This document shows, one piece after another, positions 13,765-50,432 of a stretch of 64,000 bases of DNA. Source of the DNA: Paenibacillus riograndensis SBR5 (GTDB taxonomy: Bacteria; Bacillota; Bacilli; Paenibacillales; Paenibacillaceae); NCBI RefSeq assembly GCF_000981585.1, contig NZ_LN831776.1, forward strand, positions 4,013,187 through 4,077,186, written 5' to 3'. Every line of letters begins with the position of its first letter. The first letter of the stretch is position 1. A model generated the notes under the pieces. It was not told where the DNA came from, made no database searches, and worked only from the letters and a program-made list of their open reading frames with translations. Both the position numbers and the translations under genes were made by a program.

Positions 13765-16899
<3,135 letters not shown>

Positions 16900-23145: not shown

Positions 23146-23364
23146 TATATAGAGTGAACTTAAGATCTTTACATTAGGGACTTCGTCGGGACTACGGAAA
23201 ATGTTTGGACTTCAGGCCGCTGCCCATCTGCAGATTTCTTGATTGTATACCGCTCTTCGCGGTGGAAATCCGCAGACAAAAGCGGACGCTACCGCTCCGT
23301 AAGTATCCGAACTTCTCCCCCGCCATTTCCCCTTAATTGTACTATTTTCAAGTTCAATTTATTA
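23146..23364. repeat. MITE-like element, copy B
   Basis: A second copy of the ~217-bp element, in the same orientation as the copy at 2702. The left end TATATAGAGTGAAC is intact, while the right end is eroded to GTTCAATTTATTA. The shared block GCCCATCTGCAGATTTCTTG is identical to copy A. It ends 122 bp before the start codon of the GH87 glucanase gene and so forms part of its upstream region. Confidence 0.85.
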
Positions 23365-23486
23365 TGCACGATTTGCATGGAATCGCCTATCTTTCCAGTA
23401 GAAATGCCTATCCGGATTTTCTGCGTAAAAACTATAATGAGTATGTATTGCAGCGGCAATCTTACACATTTTGGAGGAGGTTAATC

Positions 23487-26400: not shown

Positions 26401-26963
26401 TGAATAATACATTCTCTTACAACACCATTGAGAATAACTGGCGGGCGGGGGGTATTGCCATTTTTGGAGGAAGCGGGCACAAGGCGGATCATAACTACAT
26501 TATCGACACAGTAGGCGGATCAGGCATCCGTTTGAATACTACTTTCTCGGGGGCTCATTTTAATAACAATACCGGCATTCTGTTCTCGGACACTACAATT
26601 ATCAATAGCGGAACCAGTCAGGACCTCTATAACGGGGAACGGGGAGCCATCGATCTTGAAGCTTCCCAAGACCCCATAAAGAACGTAACGTTCACCAACA
26701 TCGACATCTTCAACACCCAGCGGGATGCCATCCAATTGGGATATGGCGGCGGATTCAGCAATATCGTATTTAATAATATTATCATTAACGGTACGGGGCT
26801 GGATGGAGTCACCACCTCACGTTTTTCTGGAGCTCACAAAGGCGCGGCAATCTACACCTATACCGGCAACGGCTCGGCCACCTTCAACAACCTGACCACC
26901 AGCAACATTGCCTATCTTGATCTGTATTACATTCAGAGCGGCTTTGGATTAACCATTCAATAG
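23487..26963 (+). CDS. Secreted alpha-1,3-glucanase (mycodextranase), GH87
   Basis: A 1158-residue exported enzyme. A signal peptide ends near residue 31 (PASAAG). A discoidin (F5/8 type C) domain covers about 35-170, then a Thr/Pro-rich linker (173-221), a second discoidin domain (223-358), two CARDB modules (about 363-588), a carbohydrate-binding-like beta domain (591-756) and a right-handed beta-helix (761-1158). The helix holds the GH87 acidic triad D932, D955 and D956 (ADGINF and NNGDDGLAVW), with the 23/24-residue spacing I recall for characterised Agl enzymes. It should hydrolyse alpha-1,3-glucan of fungal walls or dental-type glucans outside the cell. The ATG at 23487 has GGAGGAGG 6 nt upstream; the open frame extends back to 23337 into the MITE. 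Confidence 0.88.
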   Translation: MRNKYFLWLVLGTLMLASLSMGAGPFTPASAAGAPNLTLGKSITASGHTQNYSEGNVQDSDQATYWESVNNTFPQWLQVDLGAITSIDQIVLKLPAGWEARTQTLSVQGSTDGTGFTTILGSADYSFSPSVQNNSVTISFSAADTRYVRLSYTANTVWPAAQLAEFEIYGTSGTEPTPTPTATTTPTTIPTAIPTAIPTATPPTTPTATVAPTATATATPVPGSNIAIGKAITASSSTQSFVSANANDNSTSTYWEGNGHPNTLTLDLGANYNITSIVLKLNPAAEWSTRSQTIQVLGHDQSTSTFSNLVTAQSYTFNPSSGNSVTLPLSATVKRLQLNITSNSGAPSGQIAEFQVFGSPAPNPDLTVTGMTWSPASPAEGSAVTLNAVVKNSGNAASGPTTVNFYLGGELAGSAPVGELAAGHSVTVSLNAGTKNAASYALSAKVDESNTVIEQNESNNTYTHPSNLIVAPAASSDLTGTASWTPATPVAGSSLGFTVNIKNQGSIASASGAHDITVTIRNAGGSAIHTFTGSYSGVIAAGASVSVSIPGTWTAGNGSYTVTTTVAADANELPAKQANNVNTSTLVVYAQRGASVPYSRYDTDDAARGGAAVLKSAPDFDQAQIASEASGQRYIALPANGSYAQWTVRQGQGGAGVTMRFTMPDAADGMGLNGSLDAYVNGVKVKTIALTSYYSWQYFSGDQPGDAPGAGRPLFRFDEVHWKLDTPLQAGDTIRIQKNNGDSLEYGVDFLEIEPVPAAITRPANSVSVTDHGAVANDGQDDLAAFNAAVTAAVSSGKALYIPAGTFNLSSMWQIGSANSMINNFTVTGAGFWHTNLQFTNPNAAGGGISLRITGKLDFGHVYMNSNLRSRHNQNAVYKGFMDNFGNNSIIHDVWVEHFECGMWVGDYAHTPAIYASGLVIENSRIRNNLADGINFSQGTSNSTVRNSNVRNNGDDGLAVWPSNTFGAPDGVNNTFSYNTIENNWRAGGIAIFGGSGHKADHNYIIDTVGGSGIRLNTTFSGAHFNNNTGILFSDTTIINSGTSQDLYNGERGAIDLEASQDPIKNVTFTNIDIFNTQRDAIQLGYGGGFSNIVFNNIIINGTGLDGVTTSRFSGAHKGAAIYTYTGNGSATFNNLTTSNIAYLDLYYIQSGFGLTIQ

Positions 26964-27490: not shown

Positions 27491-27617
27491 GCTGTTGATT
27501 GCTTTTACAGCTGAACAGACAGCGGAATGACTAAAAACTGCTGTTTTTTGGCACACTTAAATCACGGCTTGCCGCCCTTGACAGCTGGGCAAAACTATAA
27601 ATTAAGGAATGAGCACC

Positions 27618-29273
27618 ATGTGGTCGACTATTGTATCCTACATCCCCGGATGGGTCATATTTATGCAGGCTGCAATTACATTGCTCTGTCCGCTGGGAAT
27701 TTATTTTATATATAAAAAGCTGTATGCATTCGTCAGCAGTGCAGGACCGAAGATGAAGGCTATCGCTCAACCTAATGCGGAGTCAACAGCGGACAGCCTG
27801 GTCAGCGGACAGTACGAAGCGGATTTGTCGTATGTTCAACAAGCAATTGGCGGGAACAGCGATGTGAATTTTCGGGAGTTTGTGGTAAAAGGGTATGAGC
27901 TTCGGGCTGTACTTGTTTTTGTTAATGGAATGCAGGATGAAGAATTGATCAATAGGCATGTCATGCAGCAGCTCATGTCCGGAAACGGCGGGATGAAGGA
28001 AGAGAAGCAAGATAATCGGGAAACCTTAACCCTGTCCGCTCTGAAATCAAACCTGCTGCCGCTAACAGAGCTTGAGGAAGTTAAAGAACTGGATAAGCTC
28101 CAGGAACGGATTCTTTTCGGGTATACGGCACTGCTGATTGAAGGGATACCGGCTGGACTTCTGGTCGGACAGCCGAACGGGTCTATCCGTGCTATTACGG
28201 AACCGACTTCTGAGGCGCTGCTTCGCGGACCAAGAATCGCCTTTTCAGAAGTGTTAAGTGAGAACACTTCTATGCTGCGCAGACAAGGCTTGAATAAGGA
28301 CCTGGAAATGAAGCTATTCGAGGTGGGTAGTCTAGTGAAACGCAAGCTGGTGATTGCGTACATGAAGGATATCGTCAATCCCGAATTGCTGGAGGAAGTT
28401 AAGACGAGAGTATCCCGGATCGATATGGATTTTATCGCTGAATCAGGTTATGTGGAGCAATTGATAGAGGATAACATTCTGAGCCCTTTTCAGCAAATCC
28501 AAAATACCGAGCGGCCTGACCGGGTAATCAACGCCTTGCTCGAAGGACGGGTTGCCCTGCTTCTGGACGGGACACCCTTTGCATTGATTGTGCCCGTAAC
28601 CTTCAGCATGCTGCTTCAATCACCGGAGGATTACTTTGAGCGGTGGCTGCCTGGAACTTTGCTGCGGATGCTGAGGTTTTTCGCTGCATTCATGGCGCTG
28701 ATGGCACCGGCTTTGTATATTTCCTTTATCTCGTTTCATCCCGGATTGATTCCGACCGAGCTGGTGATCAGCATCATCGAAACCCGCCAGGGGGTGCCTT
28801 TTCCTTCTGTTATTGAAGTTCTGATTCTGGAGGTATCCATAGAAATCCTGCGTGAAGCGGGAATCCGGCTGCCCAAACCGATCGGACCTGCGATGGGCAT
28901 CGTAGGCGGTCTGATTATAGGCGATGCCGCAGTAAATGCGGGAATCGTCAGCCCTTTTCTGGTCATCGTGGTGGCCGTCACTGCGATTTCATCCTTTTCC
29001 ATCCCCATGTACAGTGCAGGCATCACGCTCCGTATTTTAAGGTTTGTTGGCATGATGTTCGCAGCCGTACTTGGCATGCTTGGCACGATTCTGTTTATGC
29101 TGCTGATCTTTATCCATTTGACCAAGCTGAAGAGCTTTGGAGTGCCATATGTCACTCCCTTCTCCCCTCTGCGCTTGAGCGACTGGAAGGATCTCTATAT
29201 TCGTGCACCGCTCCCCTTAATGAAGCGCAGACCTGAAATGATGAAGACACAGAAGAAAAAACGCCGCACTTAG
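27618..29273 (+). CDS. Spore germinant receptor A subunit, GerA/GerKA family
   Basis: A 551-residue inner spore-membrane protein, the A component of a germinant receptor that detects nutrients and starts germination. The large N-terminal soluble region has family motifs RIDMDFIAESGYVEQLIEDN and LLDGTPFALIVPVTF. It is followed by membrane helices and PSVIEVLILEVSIEILREAG, GPAMGIVGGLIIGDAAVNAG and SSFSIPMYSAG. Unusually, an extra hydrophobic helix (WVIFMQAAITLLCPLGIYFI) lies at the very N-terminus before the soluble domain. ATG 27609 is too close to its AAGG; ATG 27618 fits better. It is the first gene of a three-gene receptor operon; expression in the forespore is expected, but I could not pick out a clear sigmaG promoter. 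Confidence 0.92.
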   Translation: MWSTIVSYIPGWVIFMQAAITLLCPLGIYFIYKKLYAFVSSAGPKMKAIAQPNAESTADSLVSGQYEADLSYVQQAIGGNSDVNFREFVVKGYELRAVLVFVNGMQDEELINRHVMQQLMSGNGGMKEEKQDNRETLTLSALKSNLLPLTELEEVKELDKLQERILFGYTALLIEGIPAGLLVGQPNGSIRAITEPTSEALLRGPRIAFSEVLSENTSMLRRQGLNKDLEMKLFEVGSLVKRKLVIAYMKDIVNPELLEEVKTRVSRIDMDFIAESGYVEQLIEDNILSPFQQIQNTERPDRVINALLEGRVALLLDGTPFALIVPVTFSMLLQSPEDYFERWLPGTLLRMLRFFAAFMALMAPALYISFISFHPGLIPTELVISIIETRQGVPFPSVIEVLILEVSIEILREAGIRLPKPIGPAMGIVGGLIIGDAAVNAGIVSPFLVIVVAVTAISSFSIPMYSAGITLRILRFVGMMFAAVLGMLGTILFMLLIFIHLTKLKSFGVPYVTPFSPLRLSDWKDLYIRAPLPLMKRRPEMMKTQKKKRRT

Positions 29274-29301
29274 CCGGAAGCCAGCAGAAGGAGGAAGTTA
29301 T

Positions 29302-30405
29302 GTGTTTGTACGCTCTGACCAAAAAATCACATCCACACAGGCTGCTATATTCCTGACAAACTCTGTTCTCGGAGCCGGAATATTGACGCTGCCCCGATCG
29401 GTTACCGAGTCCGCCAAAACTCCGGATGCCTGGTTGTCGGTCCTGCTGGGAGGCGGGATTATTATGCTGATTATCGTGCTAATGGTTAAGCTCAGCCAGC
29501 AGTTCCCGGGGAAAACGGTCTATCAATACTCCAGACAAATTGCAGGCAGCATTCCCGGGAGCTTCCTTTCCATGCTGCTGATCGTTTACTACATCGTAAT
29601 CGCTGGGTTTGAGATTCGTGTGTTTGCCGAGATCACCATGTTTTTTTTACTTGAAGGCACACCGATCTGGGCCATTGTCATCCCGTTTATCTGGGTGGGG
29701 GCGTATCTGGTCTTCGGCGGGATTAATTCCATTGCCAGAGTGTATCAGATTATTTTTCCGGTCAGCATATTCGTTTTTCTGCTGTGCTATTTCTTCAGCG
29801 GGAGACTGTTTGATATCAATCATTTGCGGCCGTTTCTAGGTGATGGAATAATGCCGGTCATCAGGGGACTAAAATCAACAATCCTGGTGTACACCGGTTG
29901 TGAGGTTGTAATGACATTAACAGCATTTATGCAGCATCCTCAGCAAGCTGTCAAAGCCATGTTAGCCGGAATTGGGATTCCGATGGCGCTGTACTTGATT
30001 ACTGTAGTCATGTCCATTGGCGGACTGTCGATAGATTCAGTGATTACAAGCACATGGCCTACGATTGACCTGATCCGCAGCTTTGAAGTTTCAGGCTTCT
30101 TTTTTGAACGTCTGGAATTCCCGCTGCTAGTCATTTGGATGATGCAGATGTTTTGCAACTTTTGCAGCTTCTTCTTCAACGCATCACTGGGAATCTCCCA
30201 GCTGTATAAACTAAAGATGGCTCCGATTATTTTCGGACTGATGCCGCTCATTTTCCTGGCAACTATGGTTCCTGTACGCATCAACGATGTATTTGCTCTT
30301 GGCGACGCGATCGGATTCACAGGTATAGGCTTATTTATCCTGCTGCCGGTTCTGCTGTCCCTGATTCTGATCGTTCGGAGAAAGGGGCTGAAGCAAAATG
30401 TATAG
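29302..30405 (+). CDS. Spore germinant receptor B subunit, GerKB-like permease
   Basis: A 367-residue membrane protein with ten predicted helices of the APC/endospore germination permease family. The N-terminal QAAIFLTNSVLGAGILTLPR resembles the substrate loop of amino-acid transporters, and EIRVFAEITMFFLLEGTP is conserved in GerB subunits. It probably binds germinant directly. The start is GTG 29302 with GGAGGAAG 4 nt upstream. An ATG at 29300 overlaps it out of frame (ATGTG) and would give only a short peptide. It ends overlapping the C-subunit gene by 8 bp. Confidence 0.92.
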   Translation: MFVRSDQKITSTQAAIFLTNSVLGAGILTLPRSVTESAKTPDAWLSVLLGGGIIMLIIVLMVKLSQQFPGKTVYQYSRQIAGSIPGSFLSMLLIVYYIVIAGFEIRVFAEITMFFLLEGTPIWAIVIPFIWVGAYLVFGGINSIARVYQIIFPVSIFVFLLCYFFSGRLFDINHLRPFLGDGIMPVIRGLKSTILVYTGCEVVMTLTAFMQHPQQAVKAMLAGIGIPMALYLITVVMSIGGLSIDSVITSTWPTIDLIRSFEVSGFFFERLEFPLLVIWMMQMFCNFCSFFFNASLGISQLYKLKMAPIIFGLMPLIFLATMVPVRINDVFALGDAIGFTGIGLFILLPVLLSLILIVRRKGLKQNV

Positions 30406-31597
30406 ACGCAGATTATGTCTTACCTTCTTGGCCGCTGCACTTCTACTGACAGAGACCGGCTGCTGGAGCAGCAATGAGATTGAAGATCTCAGCATGTACA
30501 CTGCGCTAACTATAGATGCCGGGCAGCCAACCCAGACGGAGCAGACCTTCGAGAAAGAGGGAGGAAGCTATTTAAAAGACAATAAAATTACAGTAACGAT
30601 TGAGATTGTTCCGAAACAGTCCTATGGGAATTCCAACAAAACACCGGATACCGGCGCCAAAGCGCCTAACTATGTAAATATTTCGGAAACTGGCGATTCA
30701 GTGCTGGAAATTTTGCGCCAGTTCGCCATTCGCCTGGATCGTCCGGTGATTGGACATCATCTGAAGGTTATTGTGATTTCCAGGCAGCTGCTGCAGGAGC
30801 AGCGAATACAGGATTTGATGGATTTTGTGCTGCGGGATAATGACATTCGCCCCAGCTGCTTAATTTTAATGAGTGAAGGCCGGGCTGCGGATACACTTAA
30901 AACGAAATTTGGCGGTGAGATACCGGCTTTTCACCTTAGAGGCATGACGCGGAACCGTTTTAGAAACAGCAGAATTATGAAGGGCATCATAACATCCGAA
31001 CTTGATGCGCTGATGCATGCCAAAAAAAGCTTTCTATTGCAGAATATCGTTGAAGCGAACCAGGAAGTGGAGTTCTCAGGCGGAGGGGTGATTAAGGGGG
31101 ACACCGGCAGATGGATCGGAAATCTGGAGCAGCAGGATATTGAGAGCATCGCATGGATAAAGGGGGATGTAAAAGGCGGAACGCTCAAGACCTACAATCC
31201 GGATCATCAAACCGTGACCTATGAGATTAAGTCGGCGAAGAGCAAAATATCGGCTAAAGTGAACAAGGATCACGAGCCGGAGTTTCACGTGAGTATTGAA
31301 TCCGAAGGGCGGTTAATCGAAAAATGGAAAGATCCGGGGCTCCCCTCAAAAAAAGAATATCTTGAAAAAATGCAAGGGATATTCAAAGAGAGGCTCACCG
31401 AGATGATTCAATCGCTTATGCATAAAATGCAGTCGGAATTCAAAGTAGAGGTGGCCGGATTCGGGGACCGATTAAGCGTGGAAGAGCCGCAGGAATGGAA
31501 GAAGCTGAAGGATCATTGGGATGAAACCTTCAGCCGCACTCCAGTCACCTTTGATATCAAGCTAACCATTACAGATTATGGCTCATTCACGGAATAA
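30398..31597 (+). CDS. Spore germinant receptor C subunit, Ger(x)C lipoprotein
   Basis: A 399-residue lipoprotein. The signal peptide ends in TETGC and is followed by WSSNEIEDLSMYTALTIDAG, the standard beginning of GerKC proteins. The three-domain Ger(x)C body follows, including PVIGHHLKVIVISRQLLQEQ and the C-terminal helical region AEF-type motif QSEFKVEVAGFGDRL. It is attached to the outer face of the inner spore membrane and completes the A-B-C receptor. It is translationally coupled to the B subunit gene by an 8-bp overlap. Confidence 0.92.
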   Translation: MYRRRLCLTFLAAALLLTETGCWSSNEIEDLSMYTALTIDAGQPTQTEQTFEKEGGSYLKDNKITVTIEIVPKQSYGNSNKTPDTGAKAPNYVNISETGDSVLEILRQFAIRLDRPVIGHHLKVIVISRQLLQEQRIQDLMDFVLRDNDIRPSCLILMSEGRAADTLKTKFGGEIPAFHLRGMTRNRFRNSRIMKGIITSELDALMHAKKSFLLQNIVEANQEVEFSGGGVIKGDTGRWIGNLEQQDIESIAWIKGDVKGGTLKTYNPDHQTVTYEIKSAKSKISAKVNKDHEPEFHVSIESEGRLIEKWKDPGLPSKKEYLEKMQGIFKERLTEMIQSLMHKMQSEFKVEVAGFGDRLSVEEPQEWKKLKDHWDETFSRTPVTFDIKLTITDYGSFTE

Positions 31598-31612: not shown

Positions 31613-32599
31613 TTACTGGACCAATCCGCTCTGCATCGTTAAGTGTGTCAACTCCTCCAGGACCTGCTCTTCGAGGCTGATCATTTCATGCATTTTTTTG
31701 TGAATCTTCCGCCGCTGAGATAGCTTATTGCCTGAACACATCACTTTGATCATGAATTGATTAATAAGATTCCACTGCTCTCCTGAAAGCTGATAGCCCT
31801 CAGCAGCTTGGGAGAGTGCGGTCAAACCGGCCTCACGGTTAAGCAGACGCAGAAACAGGCTGAACCGGATCCGGTGGATTGGCAGGGTGTTGGCAGCCAG
31901 CATGAAGCTGGAGCTGTATTCAGCAGGACAATCGGCGGTGATCCCCGTATTCAGGTAGGCGTCGGCATAGGCTCTGAGGTGAGCTGCAACCTGGTCCGGC
32001 TGAACCTGATTGATAGGGCTGCTCAGCATTCCTTGAAGCGTAGCCTGCCAATCTGTGTATGAACGCGAAGAATCGCAAAGCTCAAATAATGCATAGAAAT
32101 GACAGGCTTTCTGGAAGACATCGAAATCTACAGGTTCAAGCGTTTTGCCATAGTAGGCATCCGTTAAATAAATAAGATGGCTTGAACGGTCCAGTCCAAC
32201 GGCGAGACAGGCATGGCTGGTATGCAGCTTGCGGAAGGCCAGACACCAGGGGCAGTCATAAGAATCGAATCCGACCAGGACCGGCATTCCCGAAGACAAC
32301 CGGCTCTCCAGCATATCGAGCATGAAGGTTTTGTCCATTTCCGGTTCCTTCCGTTCAATATAACTGAACACAAGGCCATGGTACGCAGACAGAGCTTCGG
32401 TACTGATTCGCGGCAGGGCTAACCGCTCAATCAACGGCTGATCCGGGAACTGCTGTTCTTCAAAGGACACCTGCCAGGCATTCCCGTACATGCACTTGCT
32501 GTCCTTTCCCAGCCATTCGGCCACTGAATGAATGCAGTCATCGATACAGCTGCGGAGCGTGGGGTAGGGGGTGCTCTTAACGGGAACAATGTTCAGCAT
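31613..32599 (-). CDS. BtrH-like papain-fold protein of the biosynthetic cluster
   Basis: A 328-residue protein whose N-terminal half matches the BtrH-type cysteine-peptidase-like fold. Candidate catalytic residues are Cys in SCIDDC, His in TSHACLAVGLD and Asp in YLTDAYYG, in the expected order. A CPWC pair (DCPWCLAF) lies between them. In butirosin synthesis BtrH transfers the acyl group from its carrier protein to the aminoglycoside, so an acyltransfer or release role for the ACP-bound product of the neighbouring operon is plausible. The C-terminal half is helical and unassigned. It overlaps the AraC gene by 23 bp and shares its transcript; its own GGAGA site lies within that gene. The family assignment rests on motif order only, so confidence is moderate. 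Confidence 0.6.
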   Translation of the reverse strand: MLNIVPVKSTPYPTLRSCIDDCIHSVAEWLGKDSKCMYGNAWQVSFEEQQFPDQPLIERLALPRISTEALSAYHGLVFSYIERKEPEMDKTFMLDMLESRLSSGMPVLVGFDSYDCPWCLAFRKLHTSHACLAVGLDRSSHLIYLTDAYYGKTLEPVDFDVFQKACHFYALFELCDSSRSYTDWQATLQGMLSSPINQVQPDQVAAHLRAYADAYLNTGITADCPAEYSSSFMLAANTLPIHRIRFSLFLRLLNREAGLTALSQAAEGYQLSGEQWNLINQFMIKVMCSGNKLSQRRKIHKKMHEMISLEEQVLEELTHLTMQSGLVQ

Positions 32600-33497
32600 T
32601 GCTCATCATCTCCTTCGCCGACAAAAAGTGACTATGAAACCGGTTTCGATAACAGGCAGGAGTCATACCGCTGTACTCGCGGAACAGCCGGTAGAAATAT
32701 TTCATGTCGTATATTCCGACCTCCAGCGCAATAGCCTGTATCCCAAGCTTCGTGAACATCAGCAGCATGCAGCTGTATTTCATGCGGATTTCCTGGAGCA
32801 TCTGGATGTAGGATCTGCCGGTTTTTATTTTGAATAATCGCTGGAACTGGCGGGAGCTCATCGCAATCTGCCGGCTAATCTCCTTCAGGGTGATTTTTTC
32901 GCTGAAATTGCTGATCATATACAGAATGACATCATGCAGCGGATCTTCGTTAATCTGGGGCTGCTGAGTGAAGGGAACGGAGGCAGCGGGCAGAATGAGC
33001 TTCGCCAGCTCGAACAGCAGCGGGTATAACTGCTGTTGATCCTCAGCGGAACCATTGTTATGTATCCCCTGCATACGGCGGAGTAAAAAGGACAGCTCCA
33101 CGTTGTTCTCCCTGTATCCGAACCATTGCTTCAACTCCAGAAGCTTCAGCAATGGAACCATGTCCTCTTCAGAGTACTGTCCCGGCAGTTCGCCGGGAAT
33201 CCTGCAAAGCTCCGGCCTGAGCATACAATTGAGGATGATTAGCGGCTCGGAACCGGTGAGATCCAGCGGCTGAAAGACATGGGATACCCCAGGCGGGATA
33301 ACCAGCAAATCCCCCTGCACAACCTGCATTTTATCCTCAGCGGCCAGATGGATTCCTTCCCCCTGAACCACATAAGCGAGCTCCAAAAAATCGTGCTGAT
33401 GACGTACGGAAGTGACCGTTTCGTGAGTCAGGAGCATTTGAACCGGTGAACAGGAGTCAAATAGATATTCCCCAGTAAATACCGGAAAAACTTCCAT
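32577..33497 (-). CDS. AraC-family regulator of the biosynthetic cluster
   Basis: A 306-residue regulator with a cupin N-terminus (RHQHDFLELAYVVQGEGIHL, VVQGDLLVIPPGVSHVF) and a C-terminal AraC DNA-binding domain (ITLKEISRQIAMSSRQFQRL, then IQAIALEVGIYDMKYFYRLF and GMTPACYRNRF). The frame opens at 33578, but ATG 33497 has GGAGG 7 nt upstream. It diverges from the ACP-ATP-grasp-GT-radical SAM-oxidoreductase operon across 156 bp containing two 15-bp direct repeats (33563-33612) suited to AraC binding. It is the probable pathway-specific activator and is co-transcribed with the BtrH-like gene. Confidence 0.85.
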   Translation of the reverse strand: MEVFPVFTGEYLFDSCSPVQMLLTHETVTSVRHQHDFLELAYVVQGEGIHLAAEDKMQVVQGDLLVIPPGVSHVFQPLDLTGSEPLIILNCMLRPELCRIPGELPGQYSEEDMVPLLKLLELKQWFGYRENNVELSFLLRRMQGIHNNGSAEDQQQLYPLLFELAKLILPAASVPFTQQPQINEDPLHDVILYMISNFSEKITLKEISRQIAMSSRQFQRLFKIKTGRSYIQMLQEIRMKYSCMLLMFTKLGIQAIALEVGIYDMKYFYRLFREYSGMTPACYRNRFHSHFLSAKEMMSNAEHCSR

Positions 33498-33562
33498 AGA
33501 CAAGCCTCCGTTTCCAATTTCCTTATGATATACACCTGGAATCCACCCTAGTATAGCTGAAT

Positions 33563-33612
33563 ATTTTGGCGTATTCAACCATATATTAACATCCGGGATT
33601 TTGGTATATTCA
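33563..33612. promoter_or_regulatory. Paired direct repeats in the divergent promoter region
   Basis: ATTTTGGCGTATTCA (33563-33577) and ATTTTGGTATATTCA (33598-33612) differ at two positions and are spaced 35 bp apart, a little over three helical turns. They lie between the AraC gene and the ACP gene. AraC-type activators commonly use such direct repeats. Confidence 0.65.
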
Positions 33613-33653
33613 TTTCATTCATTCCTAATATGCTCACAGAAAGGGGTATAGAC

Positions 33654-33896
33654 ATGCAGCAGAAAGTCATTGAGATTATCGCTGAAATCAAGGAGGATCC
33701 GGGCCTGCTTCAGACGCTGAACGGGGCTTCCGATCTGACTCTGGATGCCGCACTTGATTCGCTGCAAATCATCAACTTTATTCTGAGAATCGAAGATGAA
33801 TTCGATATTGAAGTAGATTTCGATACCTTTGATCTTGAACATTTGAAATCGGTAGACCGTTTCGCCGCCTATGTCGCCGGGCTTGCCGTGCGATGA
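33654..33896 (+). CDS. Acyl carrier protein
   Basis: An 80-residue acidic four-helix carrier protein. The phosphopantetheine attachment site is Ser36 in AALDSLQIINFIL, and helix III (EFDIEVDFDTFDLEHLKSVD) is typical. The rest of the operon contains no fatty-acid or polyketide genes. The carrier therefore probably holds an amino acid or small acyl group loaded by the ATP-grasp enzyme whose ATG overlaps its stop (ATGA). The start at 33654 has AAAGGGG 8 nt upstream; an earlier ATG at 33630 has none. The protein would need activation by a phosphopantetheinyl transferase encoded elsewhere. Confidence 0.88.
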   Translation: MQQKVIEIIAEIKEDPGLLQTLNGASDLTLDAALDSLQIINFILRIEDEFDIEVDFDTFDLEHLKSVDRFAAYVAGLAVR

Positions 33897-35242
33897 AGAA
33901 CGTTGTACACTGCGGCAGCCTGGAGTCGGAACGATACTGGCGGGAGGAAGACCTGGCCGCTCTGCCGTCCATTCCTGATGCGAAGGCTCTGGCTATCGTT
34001 CAGGCCATGGATGAAATGCTGTTTGTCTTTTGCAGGAGCGGGGATATTCTATTAACCCGTCATGGCATGGAACAGGCTCAATATGACTATCTGCAATCTC
34101 TCAATTATTCATTCAAGACGAATATGAATCCATTAACATTGGGGGTCCGGGAATCCGGCTCAACGCAGAACGCACTGAATGTATTTGAATTGCTGGGCAG
34201 GCTGGACCCCGGGCAGGAAGCGGAGAGGTTAATACCGGAAGGATCTTTGCTTGAACCCTTTGCCGTGCTTCCCGGAACGCAGGAGGCGGTTAGACGCTAT
34301 AAGCTTCTGCCCGGACTCCCGGATGAACAGACCGTACGCAAAGTGAACACCAAAACCTACTCTGCTGCCATGCGGGATAGGCTGTCTTTGCCAAATATCG
34401 CCCAGATTGTCCACAGCGTGGAGGAGCTGCTGCAATCAGGACAGGCGCTGCTGGAGAAGGGGCCTTTTCTGATCAAGGATGAGTACGGTGTATCCGGCAA
34501 AGGAAATCAGCTCGTGGACTCTGACCGCATGCTGCGCAGAATTGCCGGGTACCTGGAATCCAGCCGGAACAAGGGTAAAAGAATCCAATTTGTGCTTGAA
34601 CCCCTGTTGAACCGGGAGGCAGACTTCTCCAGTCAATTTCATATCGATCCTGATGGCCAAATCTCGATCTTGTCTGTTCAGCAGCTGGTCAACCACGGCT
34701 TTGCCTTCGGAGAATCACATTCGCCCGAGCCGCCTCTGCTCGAAAGGCTGGAACGGGAAGGATATTGGGAAATTATGCACAATATTGGACGGGAGCTGTA
34801 TTCAGACGGTTATTATGGCGATGTATGCGTGGACTCCATGCTGCTGCGCGACGGAAGCCTCGCACCTCTGGTGGAGATCAATGCCCGCAAGTCGATGAGT
34901 CTGATTAAACATAATGTGGACCGCCATCTCAAGCAGGAGGGGATGCACACCTGTCTCATACAGGTACCGTTAGCAACTATGGCTGAGGTTCGTTATGAAG
35001 AGCTGCTGCAGCGGCTGGAGCAGGCTGGCATATTATTTTCGCCGGAAGAGGGAGAAGGGGTGATTCCTTTGTCTTCAGGTACACTCCAGCCTCCGGACCC
35101 GTCCCGTTCCACAGGTTCCACCGGTTCCGCCAAAGGCAAGCTGTATGCCGCGTTGGCCTACCGGAATGAAGCCCGCAAAGACAGACTCACCCGGAAGCTG
35201 GACGAATCGCTTCTGCGCACTGGCTATACTATACTGCGTTAA
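33893..35242 (+). CDS. ATP-grasp ligase, probable aminoacyl-ACP synthetase
   Basis: A 449-residue protein with ATP-grasp features: the glycine-rich nucleotide loop FLIKDEYGVSGKGNQLV around residue 200, and the Mg-binding end YYGDVCVDSMLL followed by LAPLVEINARKSMSL. These enzymes activate a carboxylate as acyl-phosphate and join it to an amine or thiol. Immediate coupling to the ACP gene points to loading of an amino acid onto the carrier, as BtrJ does with glutamate in butirosin biosynthesis. That analogy is inference, and the substrate is unknown. A Ser/Thr/Gly-rich low-complexity stretch (about 400-415) precedes the C-terminal helix. Confidence 0.75.
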   Translation: MKNVVHCGSLESERYWREEDLAALPSIPDAKALAIVQAMDEMLFVFCRSGDILLTRHGMEQAQYDYLQSLNYSFKTNMNPLTLGVRESGSTQNALNVFELLGRLDPGQEAERLIPEGSLLEPFAVLPGTQEAVRRYKLLPGLPDEQTVRKVNTKTYSAAMRDRLSLPNIAQIVHSVEELLQSGQALLEKGPFLIKDEYGVSGKGNQLVDSDRMLRRIAGYLESSRNKGKRIQFVLEPLLNREADFSSQFHIDPDGQISILSVQQLVNHGFAFGESHSPEPPLLERLEREGYWEIMHNIGRELYSDGYYGDVCVDSMLLRDGSLAPLVEINARKSMSLIKHNVDRHLKQEGMHTCLIQVPLATMAEVRYEELLQRLEQAGILFSPEEGEGVIPLSSGTLQPPDPSRSTGSTGSAKGKLYAALAYRNEARKDRLTRKLDESLLRTGYTILR

Positions 35243-35258
35243 TGAAAGGAACCCTCCA

Positions 35259-36380
35259 ATGAACAACACAGTGACAGTTCTATGTTCTGGTTTTGGTCTG
35301 GGCTTTTATGTCCCCGGCCTGCTGATTGAGCGGAAGCTCAAGGCGCTTGGCATCGAGGCGCAGATTGAGGTTTTTGAAACCTTAATGTCTGACAGCAAAA
35401 AAAAGCTGACGGATGACAGCCGCAAAGCGTACCAGAAAAATTTTGCCGTAGCCCTGACCTCGCAGAAAATACCGGGGGATATCCGAAACAGCCTTGATTC
35501 TGCTGCCGTTGAACAGATCTTCCGACAATGGCGGCAGGAAAAAAGACAGCACTTCATAGCATTATCCGGGCACTGGGTGCATGTTATGGACAGATACCGT
35601 GAAACTGCCGGTTTTCCTGTGTATGCCGATTTGCTCTATATTGATGCTGATCTTTCGCCGTCATGGAAGAATCTCCGCAGGCTGAACCCAGGTTACGCGG
35701 AAGGCTACCACGAAGTAAGCATGTATGATCCCGGGAAGCGGGAGATCCTCTGCAGCATTGATGCCGGACCCCAGCAAGCGCTGCCCGCTTCGGCAAGAAA
35801 CGGGAGACTGGTTGTGCATGGCGGCGGCTGGGGAATTGGAACATTCCGCGAGAAGTTTGCCGCCCTGGAATCGGCAGGGTATGAGCTGGATATTGCCGCT
35901 TACAGTTCTGAGGAGATTGGAGAGACGATCCACGGAAGACGTTATTATATGAACGACCCGGAATGGCGGACCTGGCTCCGCGACAGCAACGGACAGTATA
36001 CCTTCCCGCCTTTTGCTGAGGTAACCGGCAACCAGGCCAGCCACTTCCCGCCCTGCCGTCACTACCAGGAGGGGATGTACGGTGTCATCCGGCAGGCATC
36101 AGCTGTAATCAGCAAGCCGGGAGGCGGGGCATTGATTGATTCATTGGCTTCAGGCACTCCGCTGGTGCTGCTGGACCCTTTTGGCCCGCATGAGAAAATT
36201 AACAGCGATCTGTGGGTGGAGCTTGGTTACGGCATCCGTTACGGGGAATGGGCCGGGACTGGTTTTGACCGTGAAGAATTGCGTAAGCTGTCGGACAACC
36301 TCCAATCAGCCGCAGGCCGGTACCCCGATTATGCAGCAAGTTATGCAGAACAACTATCCGCAGCGGGAGGGAGAAGCTAA
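35259..36380 (+). CDS. GT-B-fold glycosyltransferase-like protein
   Basis: A 373-residue protein resembling MurG/UGT-type glycosyltransferases. The N-terminal Rossmann half starts VTVLCSGFGLGFYVPGLLIE. The C-terminal nucleotide-sugar site shows VHGGGWGIGTFREKF and SAVISKPGGGALIDSLASGT, then VLLDPFGPHEKINSDLWVE, matching the GGG-T and H-E-x-x-N pattern. It should transfer a sugar, presumably to the ACP-bound or released intermediate of this cluster. The frame opens at 35145 but ATG 35259 has AAAGGA upstream and starts 16 nt after the ATP-grasp stop. Its stop overlaps the radical SAM start (TAATG). Confidence 0.75.
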   Translation: MNNTVTVLCSGFGLGFYVPGLLIERKLKALGIEAQIEVFETLMSDSKKKLTDDSRKAYQKNFAVALTSQKIPGDIRNSLDSAAVEQIFRQWRQEKRQHFIALSGHWVHVMDRYRETAGFPVYADLLYIDADLSPSWKNLRRLNPGYAEGYHEVSMYDPGKREILCSIDAGPQQALPASARNGRLVVHGGGWGIGTFREKFAALESAGYELDIAAYSSEEIGETIHGRRYYMNDPEWRTWLRDSNGQYTFPPFAEVTGNQASHFPPCRHYQEGMYGVIRQASAVISKPGGGALIDSLASGTPLVLLDPFGPHEKINSDLWVELGYGIRYGEWAGTGFDREELRKLSDNLQSAAGRYPDYAASYAEQLSAAGGRS

Positions 36381-37573
36381 TGCAGCCTACCAGCAGAGTT
36401 AATCTGGATGCCAAATCCTTTGAGGCTTTGAAACGCACGATCAGGAATGTCGTCATTCCGCATAGAGAACGCAAGCATGATCCCGGCTTCAAAACCGTTA
36501 TGCCGGAAATTATGTCACTTAAGCTGACCAACCGCTGTAATCTCCGCTGCAAGCATTGCTACCAATGGAATGAATCCGGCTATCATCATGATATGGACAC
36601 AGCCGAGCAGAACCTGGATATGGATTTGGAGATGATCCGCAAGCTTTTGCAGGAAACGGATGAAGCAAAGTCCCGTCTGTATTTATGGGGCGGCGAACCG
36701 CTGTTTCACCGGGATACGAAACCAATTCTGGAGCTTCTGAAAGAGCATCCCCGGGATACGACGATCTGTACCAATGCATATCTGATTCATAAGTATGAAG
36801 AGGAGCTGTGTGCAATCTCAGACAATCTGGAGCTGCTGATACCGATAGAGGGGTTCGAGGATGAGCATGATTTTCTCCGTGGCAGAGGATCATTTCACAA
36901 AGTGATCGAGAACGTGGACCGGCTGGTTGAACTGCGCGAGCAGGGCCGCTTCCGCGGCCGCATCTCCGTGCATAATGTGATTAATGACAATATGATCGGC
37001 AGATTGTATGAACTGGTGGAATTTTTTGAGCAAAAGGGCGTCGATCTGGTACTGCTCTGCTTCCCCTGGTATATTTCTGCGGAAACCAGTCTGGAAATGG
37101 ACCGCTACTACGATGAACACTTCCAGTGGCTGGCGGAGCTTCCGCCGGATCACCGGAGCAGCTGGCATGCCTTCAAATACCATATTAAGCCGGGCAATGT
37201 CCCCAAGCTTACCGAAGACCTGAAGCGGATCAACAGCAACACTTGGCATAATACAAGAATCCGTTACCAGCCGGGACTCGACTTTGATGAATTAGAAGAT
37301 TTTGTGGCCGGCAGGCCGATGGCATCCCGCAGCACGTCGAAATGTCTGGCGCTCAGCACCAGGGTTGATATTGCCCCGAACGGCATGGTGAGTGCATGTA
37401 AATTTTTTGGCGAGCTGGCGATTGGCAATGTGAATGAGCAGTCACTGACGGAAATATGGAACTCGGACCGCTACGACCGGCTGCGGCGCATTCTGGATGA
37501 AGGCTTGTCCCCGGCCTGTTCCAAATGCAATGTGCTGTACTTGAATACCTCTGCTGCGCTGTCCCATGTATGA
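36380..37573 (+). CDS. Radical SAM enzyme with SPASM domain
   Basis: A 397-residue iron-sulfur enzyme. The radical SAM cluster motif CNLRCKHC lies near residue 53, and the SAM-binding LYLWGGEPLFH follows. The C-terminal SPASM region has Cys in SKCLALSTRVDIAPNG, SACKFFGELAIGN and SPACSKC, which can hold one or two auxiliary [4Fe-4S] clusters. Such enzymes modify peptides (oxidation, epimerisation, crosslinking) or oxidise sugars and cyclitols, as BtrN does. I found no precursor-peptide gene or RiPP recognition element nearby, so a small-molecule or ACP-bound substrate is more likely here. The gene is translationally coupled on both sides (TAATG and ATGA). Confidence 0.88.
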   Translation: MQPTSRVNLDAKSFEALKRTIRNVVIPHRERKHDPGFKTVMPEIMSLKLTNRCNLRCKHCYQWNESGYHHDMDTAEQNLDMDLEMIRKLLQETDEAKSRLYLWGGEPLFHRDTKPILELLKEHPRDTTICTNAYLIHKYEEELCAISDNLELLIPIEGFEDEHDFLRGRGSFHKVIENVDRLVELREQGRFRGRISVHNVINDNMIGRLYELVEFFEQKGVDLVLLCFPWYISAETSLEMDRYYDEHFQWLAELPPDHRSSWHAFKYHIKPGNVPKLTEDLKRINSNTWHNTRIRYQPGLDFDELEDFVAGRPMASRSTSKCLALSTRVDIAPNGMVSACKFFGELAIGNVNEQSLTEIWNSDRYDRLRRILDEGLSPACSKCNVLYLNTSAALSHV

Positions 37574-38598
37574 AGAACGGCCATGGACAAACCGACTATA
37601 GGCTCGGTATCTTGGGTGCCTCGAATATTGCTGTTCCAGCTTTGCTGGAGCCTGCGCGGTATGTGGAGACGGTAAGTATAGCCGCAATTGCAAACCGGAC
37701 CTTTGAAAAAGCGGCAAAGCTGGCGGAAACTTACCAGATTCCATATGTGGCGGGCAGTCTGGAGGAGTTGCTGGAGCTAAGCGGTCTGGATGGCGTATAT
37801 ATTGCACTCAGCAATGAGCTTCATACGGAGTGGGCAGTCCGGGCATTGAATGCAGGTAAGCATGTATTGGCAGAGAAGCCGATTGCCTTGAATGCCGAAG
37901 AAGCTGAACGGTTAGGGATGGCCAAGGAAAAACCCGGCTCCCCGAAGCTCGCCGAAGGCCTGATGATCGCGTTTCATCCGTGGCAGCAGGCACTGAAATC
38001 CATTGTCGATTCCGGACAATTCGGCCAATTGCACAGAATCAGGACACGTATTACCGTACCTGCCAAGGACAGGCATGCCGGGAATTACCGCAGTGTCAAA
38101 GCGAAGGGCGGAGGCGCTTTTGCCGATCTGGGCTGCTACTGGCTGCAGTTCCTGCAGGCCATTGTGAGTCTTCAGCCCAGAGAGATTGCGGCACAGTCAT
38201 CGTTTGACGGGCCGGAGGGCTGTGACTGGACCTTTCAGGCGGTGTTAAAATATGCGGATGGACTGGAGGCCGAATGTCTCACTTCCTTTGAGCAGCCATT
38301 CCGGGCTTCGCATACCCTGTATTTTGATCATACGGTGCTGACGATCCCGGATTTCTTCCGCCCGGTCAAAGGGTTCTACAAAATCAAAATACGGCATGAC
38401 CTTCCGGATAACCACAGTACCCTTTGCGAATTCGAGCCGATGAACTATTATGTCAGCCAGCTGGAGGCTTTTGCGGAAATCATGAGCGGGCAAAGGGCGG
38501 AAAAGCTGGAAGCTGTATGGGAACGGGTGCAGATGCACTCCCTAATAATGGCTGAGGCCCGGCAGCACCGGGTTTATCGTGAAGCAAAACGTCATTGA
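37570..38598 (+). CDS. Gfo/Idh/MocA-family oxidoreductase
   Basis: A 342-residue NAD(P)-dependent dehydrogenase. The N-terminal Rossmann fold has RLGILGASNIAVPALLEPA and the family hallmark AGKHVLAEKPIALNAEEAE. The C-terminal catalytic half has FHPWQQALK and GGGAFADLGCYWLQFLQAI. Members oxidise sugar or inositol hydroxyls, so it probably acts on a sugar-like intermediate of the cluster. The start ATG 37570 overlaps the stop of the radical SAM gene (ATGA), making it the last gene of the five-gene operon; a clear terminator follows. An upstream in-frame ATG at 37525 lies inside the radical SAM gene and was not used. Confidence 0.88.
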   Translation: MKNGHGQTDYRLGILGASNIAVPALLEPARYVETVSIAAIANRTFEKAAKLAETYQIPYVAGSLEELLELSGLDGVYIALSNELHTEWAVRALNAGKHVLAEKPIALNAEEAERLGMAKEKPGSPKLAEGLMIAFHPWQQALKSIVDSGQFGQLHRIRTRITVPAKDRHAGNYRSVKAKGGGAFADLGCYWLQFLQAIVSLQPREIAAQSSFDGPEGCDWTFQAVLKYADGLEAECLTSFEQPFRASHTLYFDHTVLTIPDFFRPVKGFYKIKIRHDLPDNHSTLCEFEPMNYYVSQLEAFAEIMSGQRAEKLEAVWERVQMHSLIMAEARQHRVYREAKRH

Positions 38599-38642: not shown

Positions 38643-39431
38643 TTACCGGTCCTGCAATGAAGGAGGCTGTTCTGCCCAGGATCGCTCATTGTTCCGCACA
38701 TAAATTCCCAGCGCCTGCTCGAAGGAAAGACCGTGATTGTAAAAAGCCAGTATCTTGGCAGCAAAGCGGATGCTCTTATCTGCACCGGGCGCCTGCAGCA
38801 GCTCTGCAGCCAGCCTCCGGAAGTCCTTCGGCTTATGTTCCGCAGCATCTACGGCATCCAGCAGAGCCTTGTGGCTTGGAAAAAGCCTCCGGTTATACGC
38901 CAGGATCATCCTCCCGCTGTAGAACACCAGATTGCTGGCGGTGTGGGCAAGCAGATAGGCGTCATTCGTTTTGGCCGCCTCTTTGGCAAAATAGAAAGCG
39001 TACAAGAAGATCTGGGCACAAAAATCCCGCAGATTGCGCTCCCGGTTCTCTTCAGGATAGACGGGAATCCGGGCTACCAGCTCACCCAGCTCCGGGATTC
39101 TGGAGAACAAAACCTCCGAACCGGTAAAAGCATACCTCGTCGGCTCATTGCCCCGCTCGGACGCAAGCTCCAGAAACCGGAGGTTGATGACTTTTATATC
39201 GGCGTATCCGCCTTCATACGTGCTGACTTCACGGTCCACATAGGATAGAGTATTGTTCCGGTTATAGGTTTCATAGGCCTCATCGGTTAACAGCAGGTGA
39301 ACATCCACATCAGAGGTTTCCTTAGCTGTTCCCTGAGCTACCGAACCACTGGTAATTACAGCCAGACAGGAAGGGTCCTTTTCAAGCTTTCCCGCCAGCT
39401 TCTCCAGCGTCTGTCTGTGATGTGTATACAT
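38643..39431 (-). CDS. Nucleotidyltransferase-domain protein, antibiotic-NTase-like
   Basis: A 262-residue protein with the polymerase-beta-type nucleotidyltransferase motif GSVAQGTAKETSDVDVHLL near residue 27, plus a further acidic residue (GGYADIKVINL). The C-terminal half is an all-helical domain (LRDFCAQIFLYAFYFAKEAA). The architecture is like that of aminoglycoside or lincosamide nucleotidyltransferases, which inactivate drugs by adenylylation, but other substrates are possible. AGGAGG directly abuts an ATG at 39440; ATG 39431, with 9 nt spacing, was chosen. It is convergent with the biosynthetic operon, so self-resistance is an attractive but unproven idea. Confidence 0.7.
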   Translation of the reverse strand: MYTHHRQTLEKLAGKLEKDPSCLAVITSGSVAQGTAKETSDVDVHLLLTDEAYETYNRNNTLSYVDREVSTYEGGYADIKVINLRFLELASERGNEPTRYAFTGSEVLFSRIPELGELVARIPVYPEENRERNLRDFCAQIFLYAFYFAKEAAKTNDAYLLAHTASNLVFYSGRMILAYNRRLFPSHKALLDAVDAAEHKPKDFRRLAAELLQAPGADKSIRFAAKILAFYNHGLSFEQALGIYVRNNERSWAEQPPSLQDR

Positions 39432-39679
39432 CTTTTTCATCCTCCTTAACGAACTCTTAGACCTTAAGCGTATCTGTTGGACAGCCCGACGGCTATGGTC
39501 AATCCGGTCAATCCGGTCATATCTGACTTTGACAGGAATCGCAGTCATTTGGCTCTACAGTATAAAGCGATACGTGAATTTTAAAAAAAGATGCCGCAGG
39601 CTGGTTTAATTTGAGTTTATAAATGAGGTGTACATTAGATTCAGCCTCAACCACTATAAACTTAATAAGGAGTGTAATG

Positions 39680-40888
39680 ATGATGTCAAACGTACTGTTT
39701 TTGAGTGTTTCGGCTCATGGTCATGTCAATCCGACTGTTGGACTTGTGCATGAATTAATTCAGCGGGGGGAAACGGTCACCTATTTCGGGTTCGAAAAAT
39801 TTAGAGCTAAAATCGAACAAACAGGAGCGGTATTCAAAACGTATAAAGAAAATCTGCTGCTCTTTCAAGACGACTTTGCAGAGACTAATGAAGATGTGCT
39901 GGAAGCAAGTGCTGAGGATTTTCTGGAAATGCTGACGGATACGCTCCGGCCCGGCAAGCGGATTATTGAGGATGTATTGGGCCAGATCAGAGGCTTGCAG
40001 TTTGATTATGTGGTCTATACAGCCGCTTTTCCATTTGGAAATGCAATCGCCCAGATTCTAAACATTCCTGCGGTTGCCTCGATGGCTATCTTAGCGACAC
40101 CGGCAGAATTCATGCCTACAGGCGAAGAATCTTCAAAAGCCTCTAGTCTGGACAGTTATCAGGCAATCGTACAGGAGCTGAAGGAAAGCTTTGATGTGGA
40201 GATGCCGCCGGACATACTAGACTGCTTCTATTGCAAGGGCGATATTAGTATCATTTATACCTCCAAAACTTTTATCGCCCATCCCGAATACTACGATGAC
40301 AGCTTCAAGTTCATAGGCCCGCCTATTTTTGACAGACAAGAGAAGGTGGATTTTCCGTTTGAGCAATTGGAAGGAAAAACAGTCATCTATATTTCCATGG
40401 GAACCCGTGTGAGCACCATAATGGAATTATACGACCTTTTCTTCAAAAGCTTTGCCGGTTTCGATGCCGTTGTGGTCATGACCGCTTACGATGTGGACAT
40501 TTCCCAATTCTCCATTCCTGATAACTTTATTGTCCGCAACTATGTTCCGCAACTGGAGGTATTAAAATATACGGATGTAGCTATTACTCATGCAGGAATG
40601 AACAGCACCAGTGACTTGATGTACAGCAATGTGCCTTTTGTAGCGATTCCGATTACCGCGGACCAGCCTTATATGGCCAGAAGAGCTCAAGAATTAGGGG
40701 CGGCTATTGCTCTGGATTTCATGACGGTTACCCCTGGGCTGCTAAGAGCTTCCGTGGAAAAGGTTCTTGCCGATCCCGCCTACCGTGAACATATCCAGCA
40801 GATTAGCAAGTCCTTTCAAGAGGCAGGGGGGTATCCAAAAGCCGTTGATGAGATTTTCAAATTAAAAGAGGAAAGGGAACGGTTATAA
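39680..40888 (+). CDS. Macrolide-family glycosyltransferase, MGT/YjiC-like
   Basis: A 402-residue GT1 enzyme. The N-terminal acceptor domain begins VLFLSVSAHGHVNPTVGLVH, and the C-terminal UDP-sugar site has VIYISMGTRV, YVPQLEVLKYTDVAITHAGM, NSTSDLMYSNVPFVAIPITA and DQPYMARRAQELGAA, all standard for the MGT/YjiC group. These enzymes glycosylate macrolides, flavonoids and other lipophilic acceptors and can inactivate antibiotics. There are three consecutive ATG-type starts (39677, 39680, 39683) after AAGGAG; 39680 gives 7 nt spacing. It is monocistronic and follows the biosynthetic cluster, so a tailoring or resistance role is possible. Confidence 0.85.
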   Translation: MMSNVLFLSVSAHGHVNPTVGLVHELIQRGETVTYFGFEKFRAKIEQTGAVFKTYKENLLLFQDDFAETNEDVLEASAEDFLEMLTDTLRPGKRIIEDVLGQIRGLQFDYVVYTAAFPFGNAIAQILNIPAVASMAILATPAEFMPTGEESSKASSLDSYQAIVQELKESFDVEMPPDILDCFYCKGDISIIYTSKTFIAHPEYYDDSFKFIGPPIFDRQEKVDFPFEQLEGKTVIYISMGTRVSTIMELYDLFFKSFAGFDAVVVMTAYDVDISQFSIPDNFIVRNYVPQLEVLKYTDVAITHAGMNSTSDLMYSNVPFVAIPITADQPYMARRAQELGAAIALDFMTVTPGLLRASVEKVLADPAYREHIQQISKSFQEAGGYPKAVDEIFKLKEERERL

Positions 40889-48391: not shown

Positions 48392-48418
48392 AACAACGAT
48401 GAAAAAGGGGGAGCAGAT

Positions 48419-50419: not shown

Positions 50420-50432
50420 CTTTCATGATAAG

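Follow-up and report, generated by a model that had tools for sequence, protein, structure and literature searches.

A candidate carrier-protein-templated biosynthetic cluster without nonribosomal peptide synthetase genes in Paenibacillus riograndensis SBR5

In the present study, we analysed a 64,000-nucleotide stretch of DNA (hereafter the window) from Paenibacillus riograndensis SBR5, positions 4,013,187 to 4,077,186 of contig NZ_LN831776.1, and focused on a compact gene cluster that may build its product on a discrete carrier protein. The genome (G000) comprises 7.92 Mb in one contig, and the nearest named relatives of the window proteins came from Paenibacillus sonchi and P. riograndensis. 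Five genes of the cluster lie on the forward strand and encode a discrete acyl or peptidyl carrier protein (ACP; 33654-33896, 80 aa), an ATP-grasp ligase (33893-35242, 449 aa), a putative GT-B glycosyltransferase (GT; 35259-36380, 373 aa), a radical S-adenosylmethionine (radical SAM) enzyme with a predicted twitch domain (36380-37573) and a Gfo/Idh/MocA oxidoreductase (37570-38598, 342 aa). Across a divergent regulatory region common to both arms (33573-33653), the reverse strand carries genes for an AraC-family regulator (32577-33578) and a papain-fold protein resembling BtrH, CcbD and CtaG (31613-32599, 328 aa). A gene for a nucleotidyltransferase-fold protein (38643-39431, reverse strand; 262 aa from a conserved Met, with the open reading frame extending to 39548) closes the other end. 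ATGA overlaps (-4 bp) were found at the ACP/ATP-grasp and radical SAM/Gfo-Idh joins, and a TAATG overlap (-1 bp) at the GT/radical SAM join. The seven genes proposed in an initial annotation of this DNA, with their coordinates and overlaps, were all borne out by the reading frames of the window, but the nucleotidyltransferase gene, which lies beyond the range it covered, had been missed. At the sequence level, the ACP, radical SAM, Gfo/Idh and AraC proteins were assigned to their families by Pfam matches above cut-off, and the ATP-grasp protein and the C-terminal half of the GT by profile matches to solved structures; Pfam scores are given below in bits, with the curated cut-off in parentheses. 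In view of its gene content, conserved operon, protein folds, active-site residues and co-inheritance, we read this locus as a carrier-protein-templated biosynthetic cluster that works without a nonribosomal peptide synthetase (NRPS), and we put the probability of this reading at about 60%.

The conservation of the cluster was examined among relatives from the same genus. In a genus sample of 100 genomes, 45 contained an ATP-grasp relative, and the 22 genomes (the window's own included) with a full-length ATP-grasp protein at an identity of at least 72% were taken as close relatives. All seven genes named in the initial annotation were found in 22/22 of them. The spacing at the joins was kept across the window and 21 relatives, with -4 bp between ACP and ATP-grasp in 20/22, -1 bp between GT and radical SAM in 21/22 and -4 bp between radical SAM and Gfo/Idh in 22/22, indicating that the gene overlaps exceed chance. 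The gap between the ATP-grasp and GT genes was 13-16 bp in 21/22 close relatives and 148 bp in one. The ratio of nonsynonymous to synonymous substitution rates was 0.00-0.27 for the eight genes, nucleotidyltransferase included, in the pairs computed (five pairs without the nucleotidyltransferase, three of them also without AraC, plus four pairs with trimmed starts). In one close relative (L037, genome G052), the radical SAM gene was broken into two overlapping frames, which reflects either an assembly error or a damaged copy.

The carrier protein and the ATP-grasp enzyme were examined as candidates for a loading step. The ACP matched PP-binding with 30.1 bits (20.8), and Ser36, the candidate site for phosphopantetheine, was invariant in 16/16 aligned rows; two phosphopantetheinyl transferase matches were available in the host genome. 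The ATP-grasp profile matched the solved ATP-grasp peptide ligase 8ynd (E = 6e-10), and E328, N330 and R332 of its VEINARKSM segment were invariant in 16/16 rows. A homologue (P0013) was named by its source '[Butirosin acyl-carrier protein]--L-glutamate ligase'. An ACP gene was present in 44/44 loci selected by an ATP-grasp match and scoring at least 400 bits against that family, a count from which L075 and L076 were left out for scores below 400 bits. The catalytic fold (by profile match) and the adjoining ACP (by locus count) thus agreed with a BtrJ-type ligase, a candidate for loading the ACP. The domain content did not, as PGM1_C reached 21.5 bits (22.5) and PreATP-grasp gave no match in the window ATP-grasp protein; both domains were present in the second ATP-grasp protein of a related locus, L054.

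The papain-fold protein was examined by sequence and by predicted structure. The initial annotation had described it as BtrH-like; its papain fold was supported by the predicted structure, but membership in the BtrH family was not supported by sequence, with 19.2 bits (29.7; E = 0.0015) against BtrH_N (PF14399), and it was not among the two BtrH_N matches listed genome-wide. These two lie at G000:C1:2758114-2758500 (153.8 bits) and 2137267-2137428 (29.7 bits), the latter with a phosphopantetheinyl transferase match some 1.5 kb away and perhaps part of another carrier-protein locus. In the predicted model, a papain-like N-terminal domain and a helical C-terminal domain superposed over their full length on the CcbD/CtaG/AziU fold. 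These proteins appear to be a better structural comparison than BtrH, which was absent among the solved structures listed. C18, H126, H129 and D147 were invariant in 17/17 rows, giving C18, H126 or H129, and D147 as candidate catalytic residues. According to structure entry titles and an excerpt of PMC12945683, the catalytic residues are C11/H128/D144 in CtaG and C19/H131 in CcbD, and the spacing in the window protein is similar in sequence, in a region where the model is weak. On the predicted fold, the protein may be an amide-forming condensing enzyme. The general idea is not new, since a passage of PMC2922099 already proposed that papain-fold proteins of the BtrH type probably act as transacylases in operons predicted to form peptides.

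The radical SAM enzyme matched Radical_SAM with 67.2 bits (29.5) and SPASM with 54.3 bits (21.5); among the 25 best NCBIfam matches, every radical SAM model stayed below its cut-off. The CxxxCxxC cysteines C53, C57 and C60, together with the auxiliary C322, C340, C380 and C383, were invariant in 17/17 rows, and the auxiliary four aligned with cysteines of BtrN. Full SPASM domains hold two auxiliary clusters on about seven auxiliary cysteines. With only four invariant auxiliary cysteines, the window enzyme did not resemble a full SPASM peptide maturase; its CxxxCxxC motif and single four-cysteine auxiliary cluster placed it in the twitch class of BtrN. Its initial description as a SPASM radical enzyme therefore holds as regards the Pfam match, but has to be narrowed to a twitch domain. 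BtrN itself, as described in part of PMC9012708, carries a single auxiliary cluster on four cysteines and oxidises a cyclitol alcohol. A reading of the locus as a defence system was considered and rejected, as PADLOC gave weak matches only (radical SAM against viperin, 56 bits; nucleotidyltransferase against PDC-S09/PDC-M05A, 20-22 bits).

No Pfam match was obtained for the GT, and its assignment drew on structure. The predicted model had a predicted local distance difference test score of 88.7 and a predicted template modelling (TM) score of 0.90. The top Foldseek matches were CalG3 (E = 5e-11) and SnogD (E = 6e-11), with TM scores of 0.58 and 0.57 and 13-15% identity; the best matches were thus calicheamicin- and nogalamycin-type glycosyltransferases, and the 50 listed of 353 matches at E <= 0.001 were all glycosyltransferases. 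The predicted fold and a nucleotide-sugar site suggested a GT-B enzyme, with K286, P287, G288, H311, E312 and N315 invariant in 20/20 rows. The profile of the C-terminal half matched a processive diacylglycerol glucosyltransferase (E = 6e-7), the sole significant sequence match to a solved structure. The Gfo/Idh enzyme matched GFO_IDH_MocA with 72.2 bits (24), and its best solved relatives were the probable oxidoreductase 4had (E = 1e-33) and the sugar 3-ketoreductase 3rbv (E = 2e-26).

To place the cluster in a wider family, we compared 85 loci, comprising the window, 45 loci at ATP-grasp matches (5 from a contig scan and 40 hand-picked from the match list) and 39 loci at GT matches hand-picked to span genera, so that the set is non-random. 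Genes were called as the longest open frames, by which a short gene, for instance that of the ACP, may escape the accessory table; the core count was therefore redone on all frames of at least 60 aa. ACP, ATP-grasp, GT and radical SAM genes occurred in that order on one strand in 67/85 loci; at the thresholds used, 4 of the others had a permuted order and 14 lacked at least one core gene. Together with the presence of all seven genes in every close relative, this count bore out the expectation that the homologues travel together. The GT family occurred in 95/295 Paenibacillaceae genomes sampled (12/19 genera), in 62/198 genomes of an order sample (17/43 genera) and in 4/398 genomes of a phylum sample, one of which (G659) lay outside the Paenibacillaceae sample; the family, order, phylum and genus samples overlap. 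GT homologues were also named from Ruminiclostridium and Clostridium. For a seemingly common in-frame TGA in the GT of several genomes of genus g6, the coordinates at L110, the one locus worked out, showed the gene's own stop, through which the match had been read.

The accessory genes around this core sorted into types by profile table and domain scans. The window type carries the Gfo/Idh, AraC, papain-fold and nucleotidyltransferase genes. A second type carries an adenylation enzyme, a second ACP, an epimerase, a second radical SAM enzyme, an exporter and an FkbM methyltransferase, and a third carries a PIG-L deacetylase, two methyltransferases and a ketosynthase-III-like protein. L054 has a pyridoxal-phosphate (PLP) decarboxylase, a second ATP-grasp protein with PreATP-grasp and PGM1_C, a BtrH protein over the cut-off and nucleotide-sugar genes; L101 resembles it by profile, its decarboxylase-sized gene lying outside the domain scan. 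Nucleotide-sugar genes were also found in L090 and in L104 (nucleotidylyl transferase, epimerase and UDP-glucose dehydrogenase). Two genomes (G046 and G094) held four diverged loci apiece, with different accessory genes. Across ten multi-copy genomes, every core protein was closest to that of another genome in 20/20 comparable loci, and GTs from different loci of one genome shared only 32-51% identity. By these results, the core appears to be an ancient unit that has repeatedly been elaborated. The gene family appears to be large, diversified and uncharacterised, and no paper describing this gene combination was found in the open-access full-text literature, where most subscription papers are absent.

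Some of these features would also fit an envelope or glycan modification pathway, in which the ACP and the ATP-grasp enzyme activate an amino acid destined for a surface glycan or lipid, much as in Dlt D-alanylation, and the GT makes the acceptor. The diacylglycerol glucosyltransferase match and the ABC-2 exporter at many related loci are consistent with it, as is a weak match of the ACP to DltC models (30.1 bits; cut-off 68). However, the GT fold matched antibiotic glycosyltransferases first, no membrane acyltransferase or other membrane protein was present among the Pfam and NCBIfam matches of the cluster genes, and the accessory sets differ strongly among loci of one genome, unlike those of an envelope pathway. 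We consider this alternative quite unlikely.

Under the biosynthetic reading, the families and neighbours of the enzymes suggest a chain of loading, glycosylation, radical chemistry, reduction and amide formation. A host phosphopantetheinyl transferase would convert the ACP to its holo form, and the ATP-grasp enzyme would load it with an amino acid or another carboxylic acid. With a nucleotide sugar as donor, the GT-B enzyme might then glycosylate the tethered unit or, alternatively, a partner amine. Oxidation (as by BtrN) or dehydration at a carbon of the sugar would fall to the twitch radical SAM enzyme. The Gfo/Idh enzyme could reduce the resulting ketone, which would leave the sugar epimerised, deoxygenated or ready for amination. 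The papain-fold protein would move the acyl group from the ACP to Cys18 and on to an amine, like CcbD in celesticetin biosynthesis. From the intergenic region between them, the AraC protein would regulate the two arms. The nucleotidyltransferase may serve in self-protection or tailoring. We would expect a small product, either a glycosylated amide of an amino acid or an acylated aminosugar. Judged from gene content, the nucleotide-sugar genes of the relatives are consistent with a sugar donor made locally at those loci, and the window type would draw on a host nucleotide sugar. Elsewhere, the same core would be reused with other accessory genes, presumably for other products.

Several observations weighed against this reading. 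An ABC exporter stands beside 50/85 loci, not of the window type, and the window cluster has none; the nucleotide-sugar genes adjoining relatives' loci are missing from it as well. In a group of loci designated type B, which belong to the window's genus and retain ACP, GT and radical SAM genes, five of six (L124-L128; G043, G049, G094, G086 and G046) lacked the ATP-grasp gene that would lie between ACP and GT. All six type B genomes also have a window-type cluster with an ATP-grasp gene, so this enzyme may possibly be supplied in trans, and a single ancestral loss would give the same picture. For the papain-fold protein, PDB searches with its single sequence and its profile gave no significant match, so it is tied to CcbD, CtaG and AziU by fold alone; when profiles were compared, the BtrH-like proteins from other loci matched it with a probability of at most 24%, and 17/85 loci had no BtrH-like gene at the thresholds used. 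The predicted model is poor exactly at the expected active site, the gene lies on the opposite strand outside the core operon, and the protein could be a thioesterase or a peptidase. The same carrier-templated pathway might accordingly use it as a hydrolase that releases or proofreads the acyl-ACP, leaving a glycosylated free acid as product. Its identity of only 10-14% to CcbD, AziU2-U3 and CtaG fits such a role, and so do separate transcription from the core genes and a faster divergence of the gene (62-97% identity among close relatives, compared with 84-98% for radical SAM). We regard a hydrolase as unlikely, and keep the condensing role in the preferred scheme.

The radical SAM enzyme raised a further objection, as the profile of its catalytic domain matched SkfB and 5wgg in the PDB better than BtrN. 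Simple functional transfer from BtrN is thus disfavoured, and the enzyme may act on a peptide. Such chemistry would be expected of a ribosomally synthesized and post-translationally modified peptide, matured by the ATP-grasp and SPASM-like radical SAM enzymes on a ribosomal precursor as in grasp-with-SPASM systems, and the side-by-side position of these two enzymes would suit it. However, a carrier protein is present, the auxiliary cysteines are only four and align with BtrN, and the operon leaves no space for a precursor gene, the ATP-grasp/GT gap being short in all but one close relative and the other joins overlapping (frames below 60 aa outside the operon were not searched). These results made peptide maturation very improbable, and the carrier-templated pathway was retained.

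Known pathways offered partial parallels to this scheme. In butirosin biosynthesis, the side chain is made by the ACP BtrI, the ATP-grasp enzyme BtrJ, the decarboxylase BtrK, the acyltransferase BtrH and the radical SAM enzyme BtrN. The window cluster likewise has a discrete ACP, an ATP-grasp ligase, a predicted papain-fold acyl-transfer protein and a twitch radical SAM enzyme; unlike butirosin, it has no decarboxylase, its BtrH_N match is below cut-off, and it adds a Gfo/Idh enzyme and a GT of another kind. The decarboxylase, the PGM1-type ATP-grasp protein and a BtrH above the Pfam cut-off are all added at L054. The toolkit of ACP, ATP-grasp and papain-fold acyl-transfer protein suggested by the initial annotation thus gained fold evidence for its third part and BtrN-like twitch cysteines in the radical SAM enzyme, and relatives with the same core bring the nucleotide-sugar genes (L104, L090 and L054) and the further butirosin-like genes of L054. 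Only two genes of the DHQ_synthase family were found genome-wide, both outside the window and both over the aroB cut-off, so that no 2-deoxy-scyllo-inosose synthase, and no 2-deoxystreptamine cluster, was evident. The second of them, besides aroB itself, lies at G000:C1:1248790-1249125 (L140; 340 bits, cut-off 305).

In lincosamide biosynthesis, the carrier is loaded by an adenylation domain. Unlike the lincosamide synthetase (CcbD/LmbD with a carrier protein), the window cluster would use an ATP-grasp loader, no thiol-sugar chemistry was seen in it, and the identity is 10-11%. In azinomycin biosynthesis, AziU3 works with an amino-group carrier protein in forming an aziridine; the window cluster differs from AziU2-U3 systems in this respect, and we noticed no further azinomycin-like gene in it. 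For closthioamide of Ruminiclostridium cellulolyticum, excerpts of PMC6772006 describe the ATP-grasp enzyme CtaD, the carrier proteins CtaE and CtaH and the peptidyl transferase CtaG. Templating on a carrier protein independently of an NRPS and an ATP-grasp loader would be common to both systems, and CtaG has the same overall fold as predicted for the window papain-fold protein. In contrast, the scheme in those excerpts includes no GT, radical SAM or Gfo/Idh enzyme, and Pfam and NCBIfam scans of the window cluster genes found no thioamide synthetase, transglutaminase or acyl-CoA synthetase-like loader.

More tentatively, these loci may make natural products of a class not yet recognised. A building block bound to a discrete carrier would receive a sugar, and radical chemistry would remodel that sugar while the unit is still tethered. 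The ACP, ATP-grasp, GT and radical SAM genes would then form a reusable chassis, diversified in Paenibacillaceae (up to four loci per genome) by exchange of condensing enzymes, methyltransferases, nucleotide-sugar genes, deacetylases and exporters. If the biosynthetic reading is correct, about one third of the sampled Paenibacillaceae genomes would hold a compact, NRPS-free assembly line with apparently undescribed products, and some would hold several. Butirosin, the lincosamides and closthioamide, which have been studied separately, would be joined through one enzyme class, and carrier-bound sugar chemistry would become approachable with four soluble proteins. A cluster without NRPS or polyketide synthase genes may escape genome mining keyed to those genes.

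The regulator matched HTH_18 with 66.6 bits (33.6) and AraC_binding with 36.1 bits, and was present in 22/22 close relatives. The TTG start of its open reading frame (33578) overlaps a DNA block identical in 23/23 rows, and in three of five pairs of relatives the frame contained a stop inside its first 30 codons in at least one member; the in-frame ATG at 33497 is thus the likelier start. The AraC gene and the core operon diverge from one intergenic region, in which ATTCAACCATATATT (33573-33587) was identical in 23/23 aligned rows and TGGTATATTC (33602-33611) nearly identical across the 23 rows. Together, they contain TATATT twice in the same orientation, at 33582 and again 23 bp on at 33605, and the conserved letters suggest that this region may be the AraC operator. 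The nucleotidyltransferase matched NTP_transf_2 with 25.0 bits (21), and a PDB search at E = 1 gave no hit for it. Its GS-x9-SDxD motif was present in 24/24 rows, with Met40 invariant. The gene stood beside the cluster in 21/22 close relatives (more than 1 kb off in four, and absent from the L041 stretch). The more distantly related loci L090, L098 and L104 have it too.

The flanks of the cluster were also inspected. Directly upstream, three forward-strand genes (27609-31597) read like what we take to be a GerA/GerB/GerC spore-germination operon. On the other side, a macrolide-type glycosyltransferase gene (39623-40888, forward strand; TIGR01426, 384 bits, cut-off 260) adjoins the cluster. It was considered as a member and is probably outside, as it occurred in the searched stretch of only 3/24 window-type loci (the window, L032 and L037). 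Further away, the window contains ordinary sugar-use genes, including those for a beta-galactosidase (13765-16887) and an alpha-1,3-glucanase-like protein (23337-26963), and a group at 46688-51185 with an alpha-amylase-family enzyme, a phosphotransferase system transporter and a GntR regulator.

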